NCBI RefSeq assembly: GCF_001874525.1
Contig: NZ_LKAQ01000004.1
Span: forward strand, 2,323,590 to 2,387,589
DNA: 64,000 bases
Source of the DNA: Pseudodesulfovibrio hydrargyri
GTDB lineage: Bacteria > Desulfobacterota > Desulfovibrionia > Desulfovibrionales > Desulfovibrionaceae
Reading direction: 5' to 3'
Shown here: positions 40,384 through 60,508 of the stretch, piece by piece
Numbering within the stretch: the stretch's first letter is position 1
How the letters are laid out: every line of letters begins with the position of its first letter
Position numbers and translations under genes: made by a program
Notes under the pieces: model-generated
What the model was told of the DNA's origin: nothing
The model's input: the letters and a program-made list of their open reading frames with translations, nothing else
Databases searched by the model: none

Positions 40384-41178
40384 ATGAAAGGTATCTCAAT
40401 TCTGACGATCAAAAAGCTCTATGCAATGTCAGGCAATGAATGTGCAATGCCCGCTTGTGATACAAAATTATTTTCCAAGGCAGGAGTTTTTCTTGGGGAG
40501 ATTTGCCATATCAATGCTAAAAATAGAAATGGTTCAAGGTTCGATCCAAACCAATCAGACGAAGAGCGAAACGGTTATGACAACCTTCTAATTCTTTGTC
40601 CTAACTGCCACACGATTATTGACAGTCGGGAAGATTGGTATCCCGCCGAAGCCCTGAGAGAGATTAAGAAAATTCATGAAAGTAATCGTGGACGAAAAGA
40701 AAATGATGAAGACATGTTTAAAGCACAGCAGATTTTAAATACCTCAGCGGCTGTGAATGTCAGCAATTCAAGTAATGTGGTGGTAAATAGTCCTGGAGCT
40801 AAGCAGACTACCATTTTACAATTCAAGACACCCAAGAAGGCATCTCCATCGATCATTCCTCCTTCTGATAGTGTCGCAAATGATCGTTTATCTCGTTCAT
40901 ATATAAAACATTTGATTGATCGTTATAACGACTTTGCAAGCAAGAATAAGAACCGAAGGGCAAAATTTAGCTATGCTGTTATTTACAGTAGCATCCAGAA
41001 GCAGTTTGGAACGAAGTGGGATTTATTGAGTGTAAATGATGTCGAAGCATGTGCTGAGTTTGTTCAAAAGAAAATTGATAATACGATTCTAGGAAAACTC
41101 AATAAGTCAAAGGGGCGCAAGAATTATTCAAGCTTTAGTGAGTGGAGTGAAATGTATCCAAATTTGAAGCAATCTTAA
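40384..41178 (+). CDS. HNH nuclease-like protein
   Basis: A 264 aa protein. The N-terminal 80 residues form an HNH/zinc-finger nuclease: Cys20 and Cys25 (ECAMPAC), GEICHINA with His42, then NLLILCPNCHTIID with Asn67, Cys72, Cys75 and His76. A central stretch (about 115-140, AAVNVSNSSNVVVNSPGAKQ) is Asn/Ser/Val-rich like a short beta segment. The C-terminal 100 residues are basic and helical and unrecognised. ATG 40384 has only a weak ribosome site. It precedes a coiled-coil membrane protein by 32 bp and the two may work as a nuclease-plus-membrane pair in defence. Confidence 0.75.
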   Translation: MKGISILTIKKLYAMSGNECAMPACDTKLFSKAGVFLGEICHINAKNRNGSRFDPNQSDEERNGYDNLLILCPNCHTIIDSREDWYPAEALREIKKIHESNRGRKENDEDMFKAQQILNTSAAVNVSNSSNVVVNSPGAKQTTILQFKTPKKASPSIIPPSDSVANDRLSRSYIKHLIDRYNDFASKNKNRRAKFSYAVIYSSIQKQFGTKWDLLSVNDVEACAEFVQKKIDNTILGKLNKSKGRKNYSSFSEWSEMYPNLKQS

Positions 41179-41210: not shown

Positions 41211-41750
41211 ATGAATATGCCATCGCTGCCAGCCAATAATGTGTATGCCTACCTTACTACAATTGGAATAGCTCTAATATTGTTTGCAATGGTTGTTCCT
41301 CAAAAGAAAGAAAGTGAATATCTATTGCTGATAAGCTCAACAGAAGAAGAACTGAAAATTGCAGAGCTAGAAATGGCCGAAGCAAACAGGCAACTTAATA
41401 ATCTTAATGAACTGTATGAACTCTCTCAGAGAATTGAGAGCAAGATGTTTTTTAACTACGAGAAAGACACTCCTGGGATGACTGGTGAACAGCTAGTGAA
41501 ATTTATTAATGAACGATTTCGTGATTATAAACGATCTATGTTTGACAAAGAAGACGCAATCGCAAAAGTTCAAGCTAAAAGGGTGTCTTTAATGGCATCT
41601 GTTGATCAAAAGAGCAAAATGATTGAAGCACGCGGAGCAGTCGTTGAAAGATATTGGATGCTCGGAAAAGTGTGTGTCTCATTAGGCTGTGGATTGCTTA
41701 TAGCAATTATTCCGTGGTGGAAAGAGCAGAGGAATATAAGCGCTATTTGA
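41211..41750 (+). CDS. Two-helix membrane protein with coiled coil
   Basis: A 179 aa protein with a helix near the N-terminus (about residues 14-28), a long heptad-rich helical segment (about 40-75, EEELKIAELEMAEANRQLNN) and a second helix near the C-terminus (about 155-172). The soluble middle would face one side of the membrane as a coiled coil. ATG 41211 follows a CGGAGGAG site. No family recognised. It is convergent with the DUF3883 operon. Confidence 0.7.
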   Translation: MNMPSLPANNVYAYLTTIGIALILFAMVVPQKKESEYLLLISSTEEELKIAELEMAEANRQLNNLNELYELSQRIESKMFFNYEKDTPGMTGEQLVKFINERFRDYKRSMFDKEDAIAKVQAKRVSLMASVDQKSKMIEARGAVVERYWMLGKVCVSLGCGLLIAIIPWWKEQRNISAI

Positions 41751-41811: not shown

Positions 41812-42648
41812 TTAGTGGTTTGCCCCTAAAGGGATTAGCACACTGGACCACGCTCCTTTTCCATTGTCTGAAGGGATATGAGGAAGAATTTGATCAACTG
41901 TGCGAATATGCAATTCGGGGGATTCTTTAGCCATGTCCCATATGTGAAACGAATACGCTTCGCCTATTTTACTAGCCTGATTCCATTCATTTCTTGTTAG
42001 ATAAAATCTAAGAGGGGAGGCTATTGTTGACTTGACTTCAACCATGATTGATATGATTTCTTCATCTTTGTAGTCGTAAGACAGTACATCGTACCCTGCA
42101 TAGTTATCATCAAGTCCTGTCCAGATAGGGGGCTTGGCAATCCCAAGACGTTCCAGTCTATCATTTTCGTAGCCAATGCTTAGTAATTCCGCCTCTCTTG
42201 CTTGTTCCATCTTTTCAATGTCGTTTTTCAGACGGGCATGTCCAGCAACATCGTCCCACCACCTGACTACATCCATGGGTGGCGGATCAATCATCAATCC
42301 CGCAGCACTAAATACATCTTGGTCATCCTGATTGAGTGTTTTTACAAAACGTTTTCGACCTGCTTTCATCATCTTTGACCAGATCGGCTGGTGTCGAATT
42401 ACAACAGCTTTTATACACTCTTGGTAGAACGGCAAGCCATTCATAGGGCAATCATCTGCTACCAATGTGTGGAGATAAGAGGAGGCTTGTAAGTCTAGAC
42501 TCAATCCGTCTGAATCGATCTTCTCAATCAGCTCAACGAGTTGTGAAACTCCTAGAGTTGGTTGCTGTTCAGCATATTTTCGAATGAGCTTCAAGCCTTC
42601 AAAAGAAGGGAGTGAAAACAAGCGCTCGGTAGGCACTCTCGAAATCAT
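41812..42648 (-). CDS. DUF3883-like PD-(D/E)xK protein
   Basis: A 278 aa protein. The C-terminal half matches the DUF3883 nuclease-like pattern: GYDVLSYDYKDEEII (Asp187), then VEVKSTIASPLRFYLTRNEW with Glu204 and Lys206, and a following Tyr/His/Trp segment YSFHIWDM. DUF3883 domains occur in helicase-linked restriction and DNA-repair proteins. The N-terminal 140 residues are helical and unrecognised. The start overlaps the SNF2 helicase stop by four bases, so it is coupled to it; it is the last gene of the five-gene operon. Confidence 0.8.
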   Translation of the reverse strand: MISRVPTERLFSLPSFEGLKLIRKYAEQQPTLGVSQLVELIEKIDSDGLSLDLQASSYLHTLVADDCPMNGLPFYQECIKAVVIRHQPIWSKMMKAGRKRFVKTLNQDDQDVFSAAGLMIDPPPMDVVRWWDDVAGHARLKNDIEKMEQAREAELLSIGYENDRLERLGIAKPPIWTGLDDNYAGYDVLSYDYKDEEIISIMVEVKSTIASPLRFYLTRNEWNQASKIGEAYSFHIWDMAKESPELHIRTVDQILPHIPSDNGKGAWSSVLIPLGANH

Positions 42649-44552
42649 AAGCCATCCGCCGGATCGATTGCCTTTCCCTCTAGTTCAGAGATTAAATCGA
42701 TGATGTCTTGGAGGCGAATATCGTAATCAATCGGATCTACGGCTTCTTCTTCATCAAGTGCTAATTCATGCAAATCTGGATCATCTAGGAGCACCTGCAT
42801 ATTCCTAATCTTCTCTGTTAATCTTCGGCTAACAGATAGATCAATGCTTCCTATTTGTGCAGGAGCTTTGGACCGATAAACGTAGATATTTGTCTCTTGG
42901 TCAGGAGGTAATCCTAGGCGATGAATTCGATCAATTGATTGAAGGTAGTGTGTAGAGACATAGCTTCTGTCTGCATAAATTGCATTATGACAAACAGTAT
43001 GAAGGCTAATCCCTTCGCCTGCTGCGGCAGGATTGGCGATTAAGACTCGACAATTTTTGTCTTCATGGAATTTTTTAATTCTACCTTCACGAGTCTCTGG
43101 GTCGCTTGTTGACCCAGAAGGCACACCGCCGTGTATATAGACTGGATTTAGATCAGCCAATGAAGACGCAAAGCTGTGTATGCTGTCGGTAAAGATTGTC
43201 CAAATGACACTCTTTTTGCCCTCGCTCGCGAGTAGTCTCACATGGTCCATGACAGCTTTCATTTTAGCTGAATGACCTTCTTCTAGGACTGTGTCTGCAA
43301 TTTTTGATTCTATTGAATAATCTTCGTTTGCCATAGCACTCAATGCCAGCACAGGATTCACAGAGAGTTGCAAGAGGCGCATTACTGATCTTCTTGCTTT
43401 TAGAATTTGGGTACTGGGCATATTCCTGCTGACTGTTCTCGAAAATTCCCTCAGGAATTCATTTCTCACGATTGAATATAGCGCAAGTTGCCCTGGCTCC
43501 ATGTCCACATCAATAAAAAATCTTTTTGCAGGCGGAAGACCAAGTTCTGTTTTAGTTGTCCTAACATAAAGGTTGCCGAGAACTTCCCTAGGGGTTTTCC
43601 CATATACAACCTCTAGCCCTAATCCGTGTCCTGGCCATAAAAAATCGAGCTGCGATTCAATATCAGATGCAGCTTGTGGCATAGGAGTACCGGTGAGGAT
43701 GTCTCTTCGTACTGGAAGTGTTGCTACACTGAGCAGGAAGGCTCCTCGCTGTGATGCCCATCCTGCTTTCATCCTATGAGACTCATCAAGAACAAGGTGG
43801 GTCGGTATTTTACTAATATGAGTGGACAGTGTCGATTGCTGACGGATCATTAAGTCGTAGGATATAATGAACCTTGTAGAGCCTGAGTTTAAAGCTGTTA
43901 TGATGTCTATTTCCTGGCCCTCTAGGAGTGTGAAAGGTTCATTCCCATTATTGGGAGAATCCTCTTCCATGCATTCATCAACAATATCTTTCCAGGCTTG
44001 TGTCGCCGCTTTAGGACATACCACAATAAAATGTTGACCCGCTGCGCGAGTCAATGTGTGAAGGGCAAAGGTAACGGTAGTTTTTCCAGCCCCAGGAACA
44101 GAGAAGTTGGCTCCATTCGAAAGAGAAAGTAGATGGCTTAAGTCTCTCAGTTGGAACTCTTTCAAATGTCGTTTGGTGAAGCCAAGATGTTGAAGTCTCG
44201 ATTCAAGTTCTGATGGTGGTATTTCTTCCACCAAGGTTTGCCTCTGCTCCCTTGCTTTTTTGATTTGTGCAGAGAAAGCCTTCAATTTATCAAGAGCATC
44301 ACCTTCAGGTCGGAAACGAAAGTTTAATGAAACCTGGCTGTTTTTTGACCCCAGTTCACGGACCAGTCCCAATACATCCGCCCAAGAAGCTTGGATTGTA
44401 TTGTTTGACGAAAGAAACTCGGTATTATTTGCTCTTACTGCTAGCTTAATCCTAGACCAAATAGGAGAGTCCGTTTCATTGGGGGGGACGGAAATAATGC
44501 CAGATTGATTGTGATGTGTCTGAATCGTCACAATTGTAGGAGTATTGCTCAT
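42645..44552 (-). CDS. SNF2-family DNA helicase/translocase
   Basis: A 635 aa superfamily 2 ATPase. Walker A VPGAGKTT (residues 152-159) is followed by IVVCPKAATQAW (Ia), DESHRMKAGW (Walker B, 256-265) and LTGTPMPQAASDIESQLDFLWPG, typical of SNF2 proteins. The second RecA domain has VIWTIFTDSIHSF, HGGVPSG and the motif VI region THYLQSIDRIHRLG (Gln-x-x-Asp-Arg-x-His-Arg). The first 140 residues are extra and acidic. Such enzymes translocate on double-stranded DNA in DISARM-like and other restriction systems. It sits between the ParB-fold gene (14 bp) and the DUF3883 gene. Confidence 0.92.
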   Translation of the reverse strand: MSNTPTIVTIQTHHNQSGIISVPPNETDSPIWSRIKLAVRANNTEFLSSNNTIQASWADVLGLVRELGSKNSQVSLNFRFRPEGDALDKLKAFSAQIKKAREQRQTLVEEIPPSELESRLQHLGFTKRHLKEFQLRDLSHLLSLSNGANFSVPGAGKTTVTFALHTLTRAAGQHFIVVCPKAATQAWKDIVDECMEEDSPNNGNEPFTLLEGQEIDIITALNSGSTRFIISYDLMIRQQSTLSTHISKIPTHLVLDESHRMKAGWASQRGAFLLSVATLPVRRDILTGTPMPQAASDIESQLDFLWPGHGLGLEVVYGKTPREVLGNLYVRTTKTELGLPPAKRFFIDVDMEPGQLALYSIVRNEFLREFSRTVSRNMPSTQILKARRSVMRLLQLSVNPVLALSAMANEDYSIESKIADTVLEEGHSAKMKAVMDHVRLLASEGKKSVIWTIFTDSIHSFASSLADLNPVYIHGGVPSGSTSDPETREGRIKKFHEDKNCRVLIANPAAAGEGISLHTVCHNAIYADRSYVSTHYLQSIDRIHRLGLPPDQETNIYVYRSKAPAQIGSIDLSVSRRLTEKIRNMQVLLDDPDLHELALDEEEAVDPIDYDIRLQDIIDLISELEGKAIDPADGL

Positions 44553-44566
44553 CGCGTTCTTCCTAC

Positions 44567-45895
44567 CTACATGCTATCGTTTTCAGTTCCGACCATACGT
44601 TTATCAACAGCTTCATTCATTTTGATCAAGAGAGCCTGAATTGATTCAATTTGCTTTTTCATGCCAGGCAAAGTGTGTTCGCCGGCAGATAGGACATCTA
44701 TGCCTGTAAGCTTTGCATTTACCTGAGATAATGCTTTGAGTGCAGCCTTTTCTGATTTTTTTCCCTTCTCTCGTTCAAGAGCTGTCTGACAAGCATCAAT
44801 CAGTGCGACAACAGCCTCTTCTTTTGATTCCTCATTTTTGAGAGCATCAATTATTAGGGAGTAGTCATTAACACCGTTGTCTTCTTCAATATCAATGAGA
44901 AAATCATCGTCTTCTGAGTCCAGGTCATCGCCAGTGGCATCATCTAAGTCCAACTGGTCATTAAGGATGTCGAGTACTTGTGGTGCAAGGTTTCCGAATG
45001 CAGCATTATAGGAGTATACACGACCAGGCACTTGATCTCTGTTTTCGTAGAGAGACCAAGCGATAACACGGCTAGCGTTCTGGAGCCCGCTTTCTTTTCT
45101 TGCAATTTTCTTAGGTATATCTCCGAATATTTGTTCGCCATCGCCACTTACTAAGTCGTACTGTCCTGGCTTACCTATCCATTCGTTCAAATAGAGGTCA
45201 GCTTCTTCTAATGACTGTAAGACGTTTTTAATGTCAGCCTCACTTCTACGCAGCCTGTCTCCAACTTCTTTCGGAGTTCTACCTTTATTTATCTGTCTCC
45301 TGACCAGTTGGGCATCACCAACCCAATCATATTCTAGTTTAGTCTCGGGCCGTGCTTGGAGGTCCGCTTCAATATCATCAATTTCATCAGCGGTAGTGTC
45401 AGGAGGTAATACAGCACATTCAACATGGCTAAACCGATTATCAACTGAGCCATCATCCCTTCGATAGAGCTCTCGCATGGCTGCCAGTCTGCGGTTGCCA
45501 TTAACCACAACTCCTGTGCTTGTAATAAGGATAGGCTCTCTTTGACCGTCCCTGCTCAGAACTTCTATAATAGGTGTGACATTTGTAGTTTTTCTTTCTG
45601 CAAGTTTTACTAACAGTGTGTGTTGTTCTGTTTGTACAGAGCTTTTCTCTTGGCCTTTTGAAAAATGATCTTTTTCTAAACCTTGTTTTGCAATTGCGCT
45701 TTGTTGTGCAGAGAAGACCCTACAATTACCCATTCTATATACAGGTAGGTTGATGCCTACAGATATGACTTTGGGAGTATACTCGCCGCCTCTAAATTCA
45801 TAGATTGGAGTTCCTGTTTTGTCTGAATTGTCAACTCGCTGAGCAATAAGTGTCTCTCGCTCAGATCTGGGTACGATGTTTATTTCATATTTCAC
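44567..45895 (-). CDS. ParB/sulfiredoxin-fold protein
   Basis: A 442 aa protein starting at GTG 45895, chosen because GGAGG lies five bases upstream. The N-terminal third has the ParB-like strand REPILITSTGVVVNGNRRLAAMRELYR with GNRR at 133-136, the nucleotide-contacting box. A helix-turn-helix-like segment (KGRTPKEVGDRLRRSEADIKNVLQ, around residues 205-228) follows. The C-terminal half is acidic (DLDSEDDDFLIDIEED) then helical. ParB folds bind CTP or act as nucleases or DNA sensors; DndB and DpdB are distant functional parallels in modification systems. Its job here is probably DNA recognition or switching. Confidence 0.82.
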   Translation of the reverse strand: MKYEINIVPRSERETLIAQRVDNSDKTGTPIYEFRGGEYTPKVISVGINLPVYRMGNCRVFSAQQSAIAKQGLEKDHFSKGQEKSSVQTEQHTLLVKLAERKTTNVTPIIEVLSRDGQREPILITSTGVVVNGNRRLAAMRELYRRDDGSVDNRFSHVECAVLPPDTTADEIDDIEADLQARPETKLEYDWVGDAQLVRRQINKGRTPKEVGDRLRRSEADIKNVLQSLEEADLYLNEWIGKPGQYDLVSGDGEQIFGDIPKKIARKESGLQNASRVIAWSLYENRDQVPGRVYSYNAAFGNLAPQVLDILNDQLDLDDATGDDLDSEDDDFLIDIEEDNGVNDYSLIIDALKNEESKEEAVVALIDACQTALEREKGKKSEKAALKALSQVNAKLTGIDVLSAGEHTLPGMKKQIESIQALLIKMNEAVDKRMVGTENDSM

Positions 45896-45917
45896 TTGGT
45901 CCTCCAGGAATTCAGAG

Positions 45918-46382
45918 CTATTCGAAAGCAACGATGAGAATAGGTACAGTTACTACTCGATCAAAAAGTTTTAATTCTCTACAAACTCTTTCGGCGTGAG
46001 CGATATTGTCGCCAATGATTCGTCCAGCTTCTTGTGTTGGAAGAGCAATCGCTGCGCCTTCTATTTTTCCAGCTTGAAATAAATACTGTAATTTTAACAA
46101 ATCATATGGAGCACGACTCATATTGCCTGTTTGAAGTTGAAACGCGAGATCATCCTTCAGAGAAAATACTTTTAATCCGAAATCGGGGTCTAGCTTTACA
46201 TTTAGGCCCCATCCCTCGTTTAAAAATTCCAACTCGACATGCTCGCGAATAGCAGAGGTGCATCTTGGTTCGATTTTGATAGCAGGTGCTTCGAATACGT
46301 CAGTAAGCCAGTCCTTCAAATCTCGGTTTTCCCAGACTGAGCCTGCATTGTGATGGTCATCGTATGTGTAAGCAAGTTTCAT
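45918..46382 (-). CDS. BglII-like type II restriction endonuclease
   Basis: A 154 aa protein of about the length of BglII-family enzymes. The core reads SLKDDLAFQLQTGNMSRAPYDLLKLQYLFQAGKIEGAAIALP; the FQLQTGN segment (residues 81-87) and the following conserved 'D-L-K-Q' helix resemble BglII's E-x-Q-x-GN active-site strand. If that alignment holds, the catalytic Glu is Gln82 here, which would be unusual. I chose ATG 46382 because AAGGGATGAT precedes it and it lies one base from the methyltransferase stop. BglII-type enzymes cut AGATCT; the target here is unknown. Confidence 0.7.
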   Translation of the reverse strand: MKLAYTYDDHHNAGSVWENRDLKDWLTDVFEAPAIKIEPRCTSAIREHVELEFLNEGWGLNVKLDPDFGLKVFSLKDDLAFQLQTGNMSRAPYDLLKLQYLFQAGKIEGAAIALPTQEAGRIIGDNIAHAERVCRELKLFDRVVTVPILIVAFE

Positions 46383-46383
46383 A

Positions 46384-47253
46384 TCATCCCTTTTGAGTTG
46401 GGTCATAAACCGGTTTATTCATTGGTCGTGTTCTTAGGGAGCCAGCCCTTAATTGATGGATTCGATCCCAAGCTATGTTGATGTATTTTTTGTCAACATC
46501 GCAGCCGTAGGCATTTCTGTTATGCTTTAAAGCTGCAATGGCTGATGAGCCAACCCCAAGGTAAGGATCAAGGACATTATCCCCCTCGTTAGTCAAAGAC
46601 AGGACTAGCCGTTCAACAAGTCCAACAGGAAACTGGCAAGGGTGCTCTGTTTTTTCGACATGATTTGCTTTGACATTAGGAATATCCCATACATCTGTGG
46701 GATTTTTACCTAGTGGGTTGCCAGATAGTTTGCCTTTGTTAGGACCTTTAAAGTGCTTTTTCTTTGGGTATTTGGAGGGAACTCTGATGGGATCAAGGTT
46801 AAAGGTGTAGTTATCTGACTTGGTGAACCATAATATAGTCTCATGCCTTCCTGAGAGGCGCTTCTGACAATGGAGTCCATGACCGAATATCCATATGATC
46901 CTATTCCGTAGAATCATCCCATGTTGTTTGAAGAGGTCATATAAAATAATATCTAGAGGGAATACCTCTCCATCACTTACATGATTGCCGACCTGCCAGC
47001 ATATAGACCCTTCTTCGTGAACTAATCGAACTGCCTCCGCAATACATGCTGCTTGCTCTTCGATATATTTATCTTGTGACTTTTTGCTCTCATATTCCTT
47101 TCCGATATTATACGGAGGAGATGTCGCAATTAGTTTCATAGATTCATTTGGGAATTTACGCATGTAGCTAAGATTGTCTTCTATAGCGATGTCAGCATTA
47201 ACATCGTTTTGTAATCTAATAACATTCCCATTTTTTACTTCTTTTTTACTCAT
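46384..47253 (-). CDS. DNA methyltransferase, beta class (N4-cytosine type)
   Basis: A 289 aa DNA methyltransferase. The catalytic motif IV TSPPYN (44-49) comes before the AdoMet-binding motif I region DNVLDPYLGVGSSAIAALKHN near the C-terminus (about 240-260), the beta-class order; TSPPY favours N4-cytosine methylation, as I recall for M.BglII. A target-recognition segment (about 130-215) separates the two. Start ATG 47253 is preferred over a TTG frame extension. It is the first gene of the operon and probably protects host DNA from the adjacent endonuclease. Confidence 0.9.
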   Translation of the reverse strand: MSKKEVKNGNVIRLQNDVNADIAIEDNLSYMRKFPNESMKLIATSPPYNIGKEYESKKSQDKYIEEQAACIAEAVRLVHEEGSICWQVGNHVSDGEVFPLDIILYDLFKQHGMILRNRIIWIFGHGLHCQKRLSGRHETILWFTKSDNYTFNLDPIRVPSKYPKKKHFKGPNKGKLSGNPLGKNPTDVWDIPNVKANHVEKTEHPCQFPVGLVERLVLSLTNEGDNVLDPYLGVGSSAIAALKHNRNAYGCDVDKKYINIAWDRIHQLRAGSLRTRPMNKPVYDPTQKG

Positions 47254-49418: not shown

Positions 49419-50945
49419 ATGTCCCTGACGATAAATCACAATTTGATGGCAATGAATTCCGCCAGGAACCTTGATGCCCATTATGGAGCATTGAGCGTTT
49501 CGACGAGGCGGCTGTCATCTGGTCTGAGAATTGGGACCTCGGCTGATGATGCAGCAGGACTAGCCATACGAGAGTTAATGCGTTCCGAAGTCAAGTCACT
49601 TCATCAAGGTATCAGGAACGCCAATGATGCGATTTCGATGATCCAGACAGCGGATGGTGCCTTACAGGTGATCGACGAAAAGTTGATCCGCATGAAAGAG
49701 CTTGCCATTCAAGCCTCAACTGGAACCTATAACTCGGATCAGCGATTGATTATTGATTCAGAATTTCAAGCGATGAAATCTGAAATTGAAAGGATTGCCC
49801 AATCGACAGAATTCAATGGGATTCATCTTCTCAATGGGAGCATCAGTACATCGACTAGTTCGCCAGCGTATCTTGAGAATATGTCTGTCCACTATACGTT
49901 CGATAACACTTACGCGGACGAGGAAGGTGGGGCCAATGCGATTGCGTATAACAATGTCACTCTCAATGGCACCAATGCGAGGATAGAAGGTCAATCGGGA
50001 GATTTCGTACTCCCGGCAACCCCCACAGGGGGATATGTTGAAGTGCCTCAGATTGACTGGTCAACCTACTCCGAGATGACTCTATCCATGAACATCAATG
50101 AGGATACAATCGCCAGTCCTGGGCAGGTTGCGTATATCACCTATTCCAACCTGCATGTCGGGATTCACAGGAGCGGGACTAATATCCAGTTCCGCGCGGG
50201 AAGCAATGTCCTCAATGTCCCGTTCGATAATGTAGCAGATCGAGATACCTACATTCGGTGGACCATGAGTCTCACAGGTGACAGCTTCAGCGTATATAAA
50301 AATGATACGCTCGTTGCCCAAGACACCACGCCAGCAGCGATAGGAGCAGCTGATCCGGCATACGCGGATGAACACAATATCGGGATGAACTACTGGACCG
50401 ATGGCGGGCGCAGAAACGCGGCTCGTTTTATCGGGAATGTGGAAGACTTCAGAATCTACTCAACCGGACTGACCGAGGATGAAGTTGTCGATTTGTATAA
50501 TCAATCTTCCACAAGCTCGACATCGACGCAGCTTGAAGAGCAAGACGTATTGGTTCACTTCGGGACAGGGAACGACAGCGCAGAGGATTACTATGATGTC
50601 GCTATTGGTTCGGTGACCACGGAGGCTCTTGGAGTTGAAAACACGAGAGTTCAGACTCAAAGCAACGCACAGGAGGCTCTTGGACAAATTGATGAAGCCA
50701 TAGTCTACAAGGATGGTGTTCGTGCCCATCTTGGTGCCATGCAAAATCGTTTGGAAAACACCATTTCAAATCTGGAAATCCAAGCTGAGAACTTACAAGC
50801 CTCAGAATCCCGTATTTCAGACGTAGATGTGGCCCAGGAAATGACCGAATTCGTGCGCCGACAGATACTCACCCAATCCGCAGTAGCGATGCTGGCCCAG
50901 GCGAACAGCTTACCCCGTATGGCTATGCAGCTTATTGGTGGCTAA
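49419..50945 (+). CDS. Flagellin with a LamG-like domain in the variable region
   Basis: A 508 aa flagellin. Conserved D0/D1 N-terminal helices span residues 1 to about 145 (SLTINHNLMAMNSARNLDA, then STEFNGIHLLNG) and C-terminal helices about 405-508 (ASESRISDVDVAQEMTEF through ANSLPRMAMQLIGG). Between them (about 155-365) lies an insert that reads as a LamG/concanavalin jelly roll: SVHYTFDNTYADEEGG, VEVPQIDWSTYSEMTLSMNI, and the closing FIGNVEDFRIYSTGLTEDE. That closing motif is typical of LamG domains. ATG 49419 has a GGAGCC site. No flagellar genes are nearby. The insert would be displayed on the filament surface and might bind glycans. Confidence 0.9.
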   Translation: MSLTINHNLMAMNSARNLDAHYGALSVSTRRLSSGLRIGTSADDAAGLAIRELMRSEVKSLHQGIRNANDAISMIQTADGALQVIDEKLIRMKELAIQASTGTYNSDQRLIIDSEFQAMKSEIERIAQSTEFNGIHLLNGSISTSTSSPAYLENMSVHYTFDNTYADEEGGANAIAYNNVTLNGTNARIEGQSGDFVLPATPTGGYVEVPQIDWSTYSEMTLSMNINEDTIASPGQVAYITYSNLHVGIHRSGTNIQFRAGSNVLNVPFDNVADRDTYIRWTMSLTGDSFSVYKNDTLVAQDTTPAAIGAADPAYADEHNIGMNYWTDGGRRNAARFIGNVEDFRIYSTGLTEDEVVDLYNQSSTSSTSTQLEEQDVLVHFGTGNDSAEDYYDVAIGSVTTEALGVENTRVQTQSNAQEALGQIDEAIVYKDGVRAHLGAMQNRLENTISNLEIQAENLQASESRISDVDVAQEMTEFVRRQILTQSAVAMLAQANSLPRMAMQLIGG

Positions 50946-58705: not shown

Positions 58706-59260
58706 ATGAAGGTGCAGCCTTTTACCAATTTGAAGGACATCAGAAACATCAAGAAGCTGCTCAGATCAAAGCCCAGGGATTTGTTGCTTTTCACAATGGG
58801 AATCAACGCGGGCCTGAGAAGCATCGATCTATTGCGGCTCCGTGTGAGTGATCTGGAAGGCAAGAAGATCGGTGATCGCATCACAGTTCGCGAATCAAAG
58901 ACCAACAAGGAAAATGTGGTCATAGTGAACAAAGAGATCGCCGACTGTTTCAAGTTCTACATGGATGAACTTGAACCGGAAACAGATCAGTATCTTTTCC
59001 CAAGTCGAAAGGGTTTTAACCCGATCACAACTTACCGAGTGACTGGCTTAGTGAAAGAATGGGCTTCATCGCTCAATATCTCAGGTAATTTTGGGGCGCA
59101 TAGCCTCAGGAAGACGTTCTGCTATGTCCAGAGGATCCACTATGGCACCCCATGGGAGGTGTTGTGCCAGCGGCTCAACCATGCAACGCCCTCAATAACA
59201 AGGCGATACTTGGGAATCCAGGCCGAGGAGGTCGAGGAAATCCTACTCAATACGATCTAG
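58706..59260 (+). CDS. Tyrosine recombinase catalytic domain, N-terminal domain missing
   Basis: A 184 aa XerC/D-like catalytic domain. Catalytic residues are visible: Arg in INAGLRSIDLLRL (about residue 38), Lys in ESKTNKEN, HSLRKTF (about 132-138, the H-x-x-R box), His in LNHATPSITRRYLG and the nucleophile Tyr in that segment. It starts almost directly with the catalytic domain and lacks the arm- or core-binding N-terminal domain of integrases. ATG 58706 has an AGGAGG site. A terminator separates it from the next recombinase. Standalone domains of this size occur in integron-like or XerH-like small recombinases. Confidence 0.85.
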   Translation: MKVQPFTNLKDIRNIKKLLRSKPRDLLLFTMGINAGLRSIDLLRLRVSDLEGKKIGDRITVRESKTNKENVVIVNKEIADCFKFYMDELEPETDQYLFPSRKGFNPITTYRVTGLVKEWASSLNISGNFGAHSLRKTFCYVQRIHYGTPWEVLCQRLNHATPSITRRYLGIQAEEVEEILLNTI

Positions 59261-59368: not shown

Positions 59369-60508
59369 ATGAGCGTACACAAGCGTGGAAACAGTTATTT
59401 TGTCCGCTATCGGGATGCGGCTGGAAAGCAGCGGAACAAGCACTTCGGGGTAGGGCTGCGCGGTAAGGATAAGGCAGAGGTGTTTGACCTTGAAGTCAAG
59501 CTTGCCAAAAAGAAAAGAAAATCAGCTATTCTTATTTCGGGATCAGCGATGTACTTAGAAGAATTATTTGAATTATATATCAAAGATTATGTCCTGCGTG
59601 GTCAAAGTAAGAAGCAGGCAGAATCTTTAAAATCTCATTTTAAGAAGAAAGTCTTTTTGCATCTTCCAAGTAAGCCTGTCGATGAACTGACATATAAGCA
59701 TGTGATGGATTTTATTGAGCGCTATCCGAATAAATCACAGTCAACAATAAACAATTGGCTGGCGTATCTAAGCTCCGTGTTCAATTTTGGAATTCGTCAT
59801 GGGTATATGGAAGTAAATCCATTACAGCATTGGAAAAAGAAAAAAGTCCCTCCCAGGAGGTTTGAGATAAACCTTGATGAGCTTGGTAAGCTTCTCAAGC
59901 ATTCGCCACCACACCTCAAGCTGGCAATCCTGGTTACGTATTATACAGGTGTTAGACCTGGAGTAACTGAATTGTTTGCAATGAAGTGGGATGATGTCGA
60001 TTTCGAGCGGGATGAAATACGGATATTTCGCAGTAAGACAAACAACTACGGGGTAATCCCGATCTCCCAAGCTTTGCGTCCAATCCTCAAAAGGGCAAAG
60101 AGGAAAGCTAAGACTGATCATGTCATTGAACGTAATGGGAAGCCCATTAACCGAGTTACTACTTCCTTGCAGAATGCTTTAAAGAAAGCTGGGATCACTA
60201 AGCCGTTTCGGATGTATGATCTTCGACACATGCATGCGACTTACTCTGGCGCATCGGGAGGTGATCCAGCGGCGATAGCATCAATTCTTGGGCACAGTGA
60301 TATTTCAACGACAACAAGAGTTTATTTTCAGCCTCTTGAGGAAGCGAAGCGAAAATCTGTTGAGGCTGTCCCTAGGGTTCGTGAGGATGGTGATACTGTT
60401 AGTAAACATCAGGAACGTAAAGCGAAGATGGCTGGGGCCTCTCAGCGTAAGAAGAAAAAGAAGAAGTTTAAGATTAAAGATATCGGCTATATAGGCGGTG
60501 ATGGGTAG
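59369..60508 (+). CDS. Phage-type tyrosine integrase
   Basis: A 379 aa full-length integrase. An N-terminal arm-binding region (MSVHKRGNSYFVRYRDAAGK) and core-binding SAM-like domain (about 60-160, ELFELYIKDYVLRGQSKKQAE) precede the catalytic domain, with Arg in YYTGVRPGVTELFAM, LRHMHATYSG (H-x-x-A-T variant of HxxR) and LGHSDISTTTRVY carrying the nucleophile Tyr. The C-terminus is a Lys-rich tail (RKKKKKKFKIKD). ATG 59369 with GGAG upstream. Likely the integration enzyme of this element. Confidence 0.92.
   Translation: MSVHKRGNSYFVRYRDAAGKQRNKHFGVGLRGKDKAEVFDLEVKLAKKKRKSAILISGSAMYLEELFELYIKDYVLRGQSKKQAESLKSHFKKKVFLHLPSKPVDELTYKHVMDFIERYPNKSQSTINNWLAYLSSVFNFGIRHGYMEVNPLQHWKKKKVPPRRFEINLDELGKLLKHSPPHLKLAILVTYYTGVRPGVTELFAMKWDDVDFERDEIRIFRSKTNNYGVIPISQALRPILKRAKRKAKTDHVIERNGKPINRVTTSLQNALKKAGITKPFRMYDLRHMHATYSGASGGDPAAIASILGHSDISTTTRVYFQPLEEAKRKSVEAVPRVREDGDTVSKHQERKAKMAGASQRKKKKKKFKIKDIGYIGGDG

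Follow-up and report, generated by a model that had tools for sequence, protein, structure and literature searches.

A five-gene operon on the minus strand at positions 41812-47253 of a 64,000-nucleotide stretch of Pseudodesulfovibrio hydrargyri DNA (the window) probably encodes a mobile, ATP-dependent defence system resembling restriction-modification (R-M), with a disarmed restriction enzyme as site reader, a ParB-like clamp, an SNF2 motor and a DUF3883 protein as the cutter. This function is one that we infer; its observed basis consists of the gene set and order, the co-inheritance of the genes, the folds of their products, the intact motifs of the motor and of DUF3883, and the loss of a catalytic glutamate (Glu). 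Open reading frame (ORF) calls and profile matches give the transcription order methyltransferase (MTase), BglII-like, ParB-fold, SNF2 and DUF3883, bearing out the initial annotation of this DNA, which had placed five genes on one strand with the MTase first. By their coordinates, the MTase gene (46384..47253) and the BglII-like gene (45918..46406) overlap by 23 bases. The most likely start of the ParB-like gene (44567..45895) is the GTG at 45895, since GGAGG precedes it; the longest ORF begins instead at a TTG at 45931. With the GTG start, the gap between the BglII-like and ParB-like genes is 22 bases, the figure originally noted. A further 14 bases separate the ParB-like gene from the SNF2 gene (42645..44552), which overlaps the DUF3883 gene (41812..42648) by 4 bases.

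Relatives of the operon were collected by scanning a ten-member ParB alignment against the genomes of approximately 85,000 species, which yielded 106 stretches and 100 confirmed relatives. The best 80 of these, together with seven plasmid loci and the window, formed a set of 88 loci whose gene families were labelled by iterated hidden Markov models; L002, L003, L091 and L092 were left out as duplicates of L057 and L058. The strict order MTase, BglII-like, ParB, SNF2, DUF3883 on one strand is found in 41 of the 88 loci, the window included, with median gaps of -4, 11, 6 and -4 bases. Two of the 41 (L004 and L014) come from one species and several are metagenome bins. The strict-order loci cover seven phyla: Pseudomonadota, Bacteroidota, Verrucomicrobiota, Spirochaetota, Nitrospinota, Bacillota and the window's own Desulfobacterota. 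Chance adjacency of the five genes is ruled out by this recurrence. In 69 of the 88 loci (68 found by script and L080 from raw hits) ParB has an SNF2 gene no more than 1 kb away, and in 65 of these 69 a DUF3883 gene is present within 4 kb. Pairwise protein distances, compared across 39 loci, correlate in all ten pairs of the five proteins (r 0.80-0.97), and for each pair none of 999 permutations reached the observed correlation. The initial annotation had proposed a restriction-associated operon and had named co-occurrence of its genes in other genomes as the point to examine; recurrent gene order and correlated distances support the association and point to co-inheritance. The closest relatives of the window proteins are mostly alphaproteobacterial, at 64-78% identity, which suggests that the operon was transferred between phyla. 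Among 98 host relatives, the host itself counted, three have the ParB protein.

The variant loci differ in the MTase, the BglII-like gene or both; for this reason ParB-SNF2-DUF3883 is, on sequence comparison, the constant module, and the modification and reader parts are what is exchanged. The BglII-like gene is missing from three loci (L069, L079 and L084) that have the other four genes, and in L057 a BglII-like gene accompanies an MTase of the C5 type (PF00145, E 1.5e-39). No BglII-like gene was found in L051-L056, and the MTase lies downstream in L052-L056. In the plasmid loci L005, L006, L007 and L010 the module is preceded by an unknown protein of 280-319 amino acids (aa), and Dcm or Vsr genes are near three of these four. 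Upstream partners were considered in nine variant loci: three have a Pfam match over the cut-off (AAA_25 in L056, PDDEXK_1 in L078 and the C5 methylase in L057), the other six having matches below it or none. PDB sequence searches with two of the upstream partner proteins gave no match.

The BglII-like protein, presumed to be a non-cutting site reader, matches PF09195 weakly (22 bits, against a cut-off of 26 bits). Its assignment is secured by the family profile, which matches BstYI (1sdo) over its full length with E 1.8e-17, and by a predicted structure (pLDDT 95) in which the BglII/BstYI/BamHI fold is clear and complete. Folds other than this one and that of ParB/KorB/Noc in the structure match lists were not used. 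The catalytic Glu, at the position of BstYI E128, occurs in none of 51 ParB-linked BglII-like proteins, four different residues standing in its place, and their main clade also lacks the TDF stretch and the Asp in it. Among 30 two-gene control loci, the Glu is kept in all 19 whose BglII-like protein could be aligned. The other 11, which do not reach the BglII-like profile, are excluded from this count; eight of them show a different motif, ALE-[IL]-E, with the acids thus kept, and three (L096, L098 and L107) no clear motif. Another 21 matches of the control search without a locus, G000 among them, lie outside the motif count. No match to ParB, SNF2 or DUF3883 was found in approximately 3.5 kb around the 30 control loci. 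Elsewhere in the ParB-linked proteins, Q92, the counterpart of BstYI Q130, is constant, and Asn occupies the position of BamHI N116 in 48 of 49 members, L067 having K as in BstYI. BamHI N116 is, we assume, a residue that contacts DNA bases, and the kept Asn fits site reading without cutting.

Selection of loci by ParB was avoided in a search of 385, 390 and 291 genomes that used the BglII-like profile. In all 28 loci found, the Glu is absent if and only if ParB adjoins: nine are without Glu, each with an adjoining ParB, and no ParB was seen beside the 19 with Glu in the approximately 1.5 kb fetched on each side. One locus, L144, has Gly in the Glu column and an adjoining ParB, with no PF01555-type MTase in approximately 1.5 kb. 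One genome (G797) contains four BglII-type R-M loci (L132, L137, L138 and L139) with identical scores and motif stretch. On a tree of BglII-like proteins with 33 operon rows and 28 two-gene rows, the operon label requires two changes, and a single clade of operon proteins is rejected (p-AU 0.0195). L067, a BstYI-like form with N at both acid positions, falls inside the BstYI-type clade; since its branch is long, two losses of the active-site Glu are likely rather than certain.

The MTase, presumed to mark the cell's own DNA, belongs to the beta class (PF01555, E 2.5e-52), with a TSPPY motif preceding a DPxLGxG motif; S68, P69, P70, Y71, D252, P253 and G256 (numbering of the 312-aa ORF) are constant in 57 of 57 aligned MTases. 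The TSPPY motif presumably points to N4-cytosine methylation, a specificity that is plausible for the window MTase. The nearest solved structure is that of M.RsrI (1nw8, 2.3e-33), which we take to be an adenine MTase. The same MTase family is common in two-gene BglII-type loci, 15 of the 30 controls matching at E < 1e-130. Because the operon label requires three changes on the MTase tree, MTases are seen, as far as the tree tells, to be exchanged between two-gene and operon systems. The shared MTase family, the complete BglII-like fold and the constant Q92 all speak for the view of the initial annotation, an ordinary type II R-M pair with ParB-SNF2-DUF3883 as an accessory module; the BglII-like nuclease would then have to be active by way of an unusual active site. 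Against it stand the replacement of Glu in every ParB-linked member, the missing TDF stretch of the main clade, and the association between Glu loss and ParB in all 28 loci of the search with the BglII-like profile. The MTase and BglII-like protein are therefore not borne out as a working type II pair, and we regard this explanation, and with it an active BglII-like nuclease, as quite improbable.

Sequence matches of the ParB-like protein are weak (Pfam ddrB-ParB, 0.055; phrog_1033, 1.5e-7). The call is secured by the predicted structure, for which the top matches are without exception to ParB, KorB and Noc; a nucleotide domain, a helix-turn-helix (HTH) domain and C-terminal helices can be distinguished, and the GxRR motif is present. 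By analogy with the ParB/KorB/Noc CTPase clamps, with which it shares these domains and the motif, the protein may act as a nucleotide-gated (CTP) sliding clamp. Unlike those clamps, it is encoded with an MTase, an SNF2 protein and a nuclease and not as the partner gene of a ParA. The window protein gave no match in PADLOC 2023 or NCBIfam, and among 51 members any PADLOC model was matched weakly in at most two. A single-sequence query of viral contigs found no relative. ParB relatives without SNF2 or DUF3883 number 18 (L058, L060-L063, L065, L066, L068, L070-L075, L077, L085, L087 and L088); two of these, L065 and L066, adjoin genes that by eye resemble sugar-nucleotide enzymes.

Such solo relatives would suit a protective or regulatory system, in which the MTase, the reader, ParB and SNF2 would serve to mark, shield or partition the DNA of a mobile element, on the pattern of P1 Dar/Ddr-like anti-restriction or of plasmid maintenance, and DUF3883 would be engaged in processing. 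The location of loci on plasmids and in the vicinity of recombinases and ParA is in line with this, as is the fact that the PHROGs nearest to the SNF2 protein (phrog_62, a giant phage helicase family, 2e-50) and to the MTase (phrog_67, 1.6e-58) are phage helicase and methyltransferase families. One further family, phrog_498, is hit by two of the operon proteins, ParB and MTase, in different parts, a hint that there has been exchange with multi-domain proteins of phages. However, tblastn of ParB matched no phage record, the MTase and BglII-like protein come from restriction families, and the nuclease core of DUF3883 is conserved. We consider a protective or regulatory role unlikely.

That core, and the motor beside it, were assessed over 62 DUF3883 and 63 SNF2 members, short proteins (up to 190 aa and up to 450 aa, respectively) having been excluded. 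The SNF2 protein is compact, with 635 aa (PF00176, 1.4e-10; PF00271, 1.3e-7). In 63 members the Walker A GxGKT, DExH, GTP and QxxDRxHRLG residues are constant or almost so, and K157, D256, E257, R542 and R545 are constant throughout. In the DUF3883/NOV_C protein, a presumed nuclease (PF13020, 9.3e-12), E154, D187, E204 and K206 are present in all 35 members of set A4; among 62 members, E154 and D187 occur in 62 and E204 and K206 in 61, L049 lacking that stretch. We take this arrangement to be the PD-(D/E)XK nuclease pattern. Because the BglII-like protein is without its catalytic Glu, DUF3883 is the likely cutter of the operon, to judge by these residues. Cleavage by DUF3883, as earlier proposed, thus agrees with the kept core residues; its designation as a second cutter gives way to that of a likely cutter in place of the BglII-like protein. 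DUF3883 also holds the sole intact nuclease core in the operon, and ParB/DUF3883 distances correlate best of the ten pairs (r 0.971), two observations that would accord with a composite nuclease in which the BglII-like protein binds DNA and DUF3883 provides the active site directly, ParB and SNF2 only sensing phage activity or clearing blocks (abortive or conditional restriction). Variants without the BglII-like protein nevertheless retain ParB-SNF2-DUF3883, favouring ParB and SNF2 as core partners, and a composite nuclease of this kind has little probability in our estimation.

Known systems share parts of the operon. DISARM, Zorya and Dpd each have an SNF2-type helicase (DrmD, ZorD and DpdE, respectively) to which the operon SNF2 gives partial matches; the latter, in contrast, is compact and falls far below the family cut-offs (26 bits against 610 for DrmD, 21 against 1500 for ZorD and 20.8 against 500 for DpdE). 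Matches of the window SNF2 and DUF3883 proteins to PADLOC and NCBIfam models are likewise only partial. Among the five operon proteins, DUF1998 (DrmB) and PLD (DrmC) of DISARM had no Pfam match at E up to 1, and neither PglZ of BREX nor the partner families of Zorya and Dpd were matched. Identity with DISARM, BREX, Dpd or Zorya was rejected, since the defining families are not among the five proteins; the family scans uphold, for these proteins, the original statement that the operon is neither Dnd nor any of the first three, and extend it to Zorya. The combination of an MTase, a separate nuclease and a helicase-type motor presumably resembles ATP-dependent R-M of the CglI/NgoAVII type. Two-gene BglII/BstYI-type R-M has the same MTase family and an adjoining protein of the same fold, but the aligned enzymes keep Glu and have no ParB in approximately 1.5 kb on either side, whereas the present operon has lost the Glu and gained three genes. 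The operon is rated a variant of R-M-like defence, outside the coverage of PADLOC 2023 for its ParB gene.

In the window, GC is 40-48% from near 40 kb onward (40000-64000), and the operon is contained in this low-GC part; the adjoining DNA is mostly of 62-68% GC, apart from a 50% stretch at 10-12 kb. The ORFs at 58706-59260 and 59369-60508 are recombinase-like, the second matching PF00589 (3.5e-23). On account of the low GC and these ORFs, the region looks like a genomic island. On the plus strand, 40384-41178 encodes an HNH-type protein with strong matches to the PADLOC candidate PDC-M68A (1.2e-28) and to CBASS/SAVED-type endonuclease effectors; a small protein of no clear family follows immediately (41211-41750, plus strand), and the two genes are perhaps a second defence pair adjoining the operon. 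A flagellin-like protein with a long insert in its middle region, recognised by eye only, is encoded at 49419-50945 (plus strand) within the low-GC stretch. Neighbours of the operon loci include Qat, Lamassu and type I R-M proteins and recombinase-like ORFs. A conserved sixth gene was sought in 399 neighbouring ORFs, the largest recurring group spanning 6 loci only; the recurring groups, judged by first residues, resemble recombinases, an ATPase, ParA, replication proteins and LysR.

Under the R-M-like reading, the MTase would mark the host's sites, and the disarmed BglII-like protein would bind the same site when unmodified, without cutting. The ParB-like protein would be loaded there as a sliding clamp and would recruit or license the SNF2 motor, which would travel along the DNA and deliver or activate DUF3883; unmodified phage or plasmid DNA would then be cut by DUF3883. 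In lineages without the BglII-like protein, the site might be read by the ParB HTH domain or by another partner. Several points weigh against this reading. Named defence neighbours of the operon loci are sparse, as are mobile-element proteins, and control loci gave some defence matches too. Six of the nine ParB-linked loci from the ParB-independent search carry a BglII-like sequence already in the set (whole or over the last 100 residues), which leaves three new ones, and of the 19 loci that keep the Glu, four are copies within a single genome. We tentatively propose that recognition of the site is linked to cutting through the ParB clamp: upon joining the ParB-SNF2-DUF3883 module, a type II enzyme would have become a non-cutting reader, perhaps twice, and the decision to cut would have passed to a nucleotide-gated clamp and a motor. 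If this is true, the operon represents a widespread system and illustrates the path from a classic two-gene R-M pair to an ATP-dependent system of several subunits in which the former restriction enzyme is retained as reader, and the ParB clamp, familiar from chromosome and plasmid partition, would enter DNA defence.
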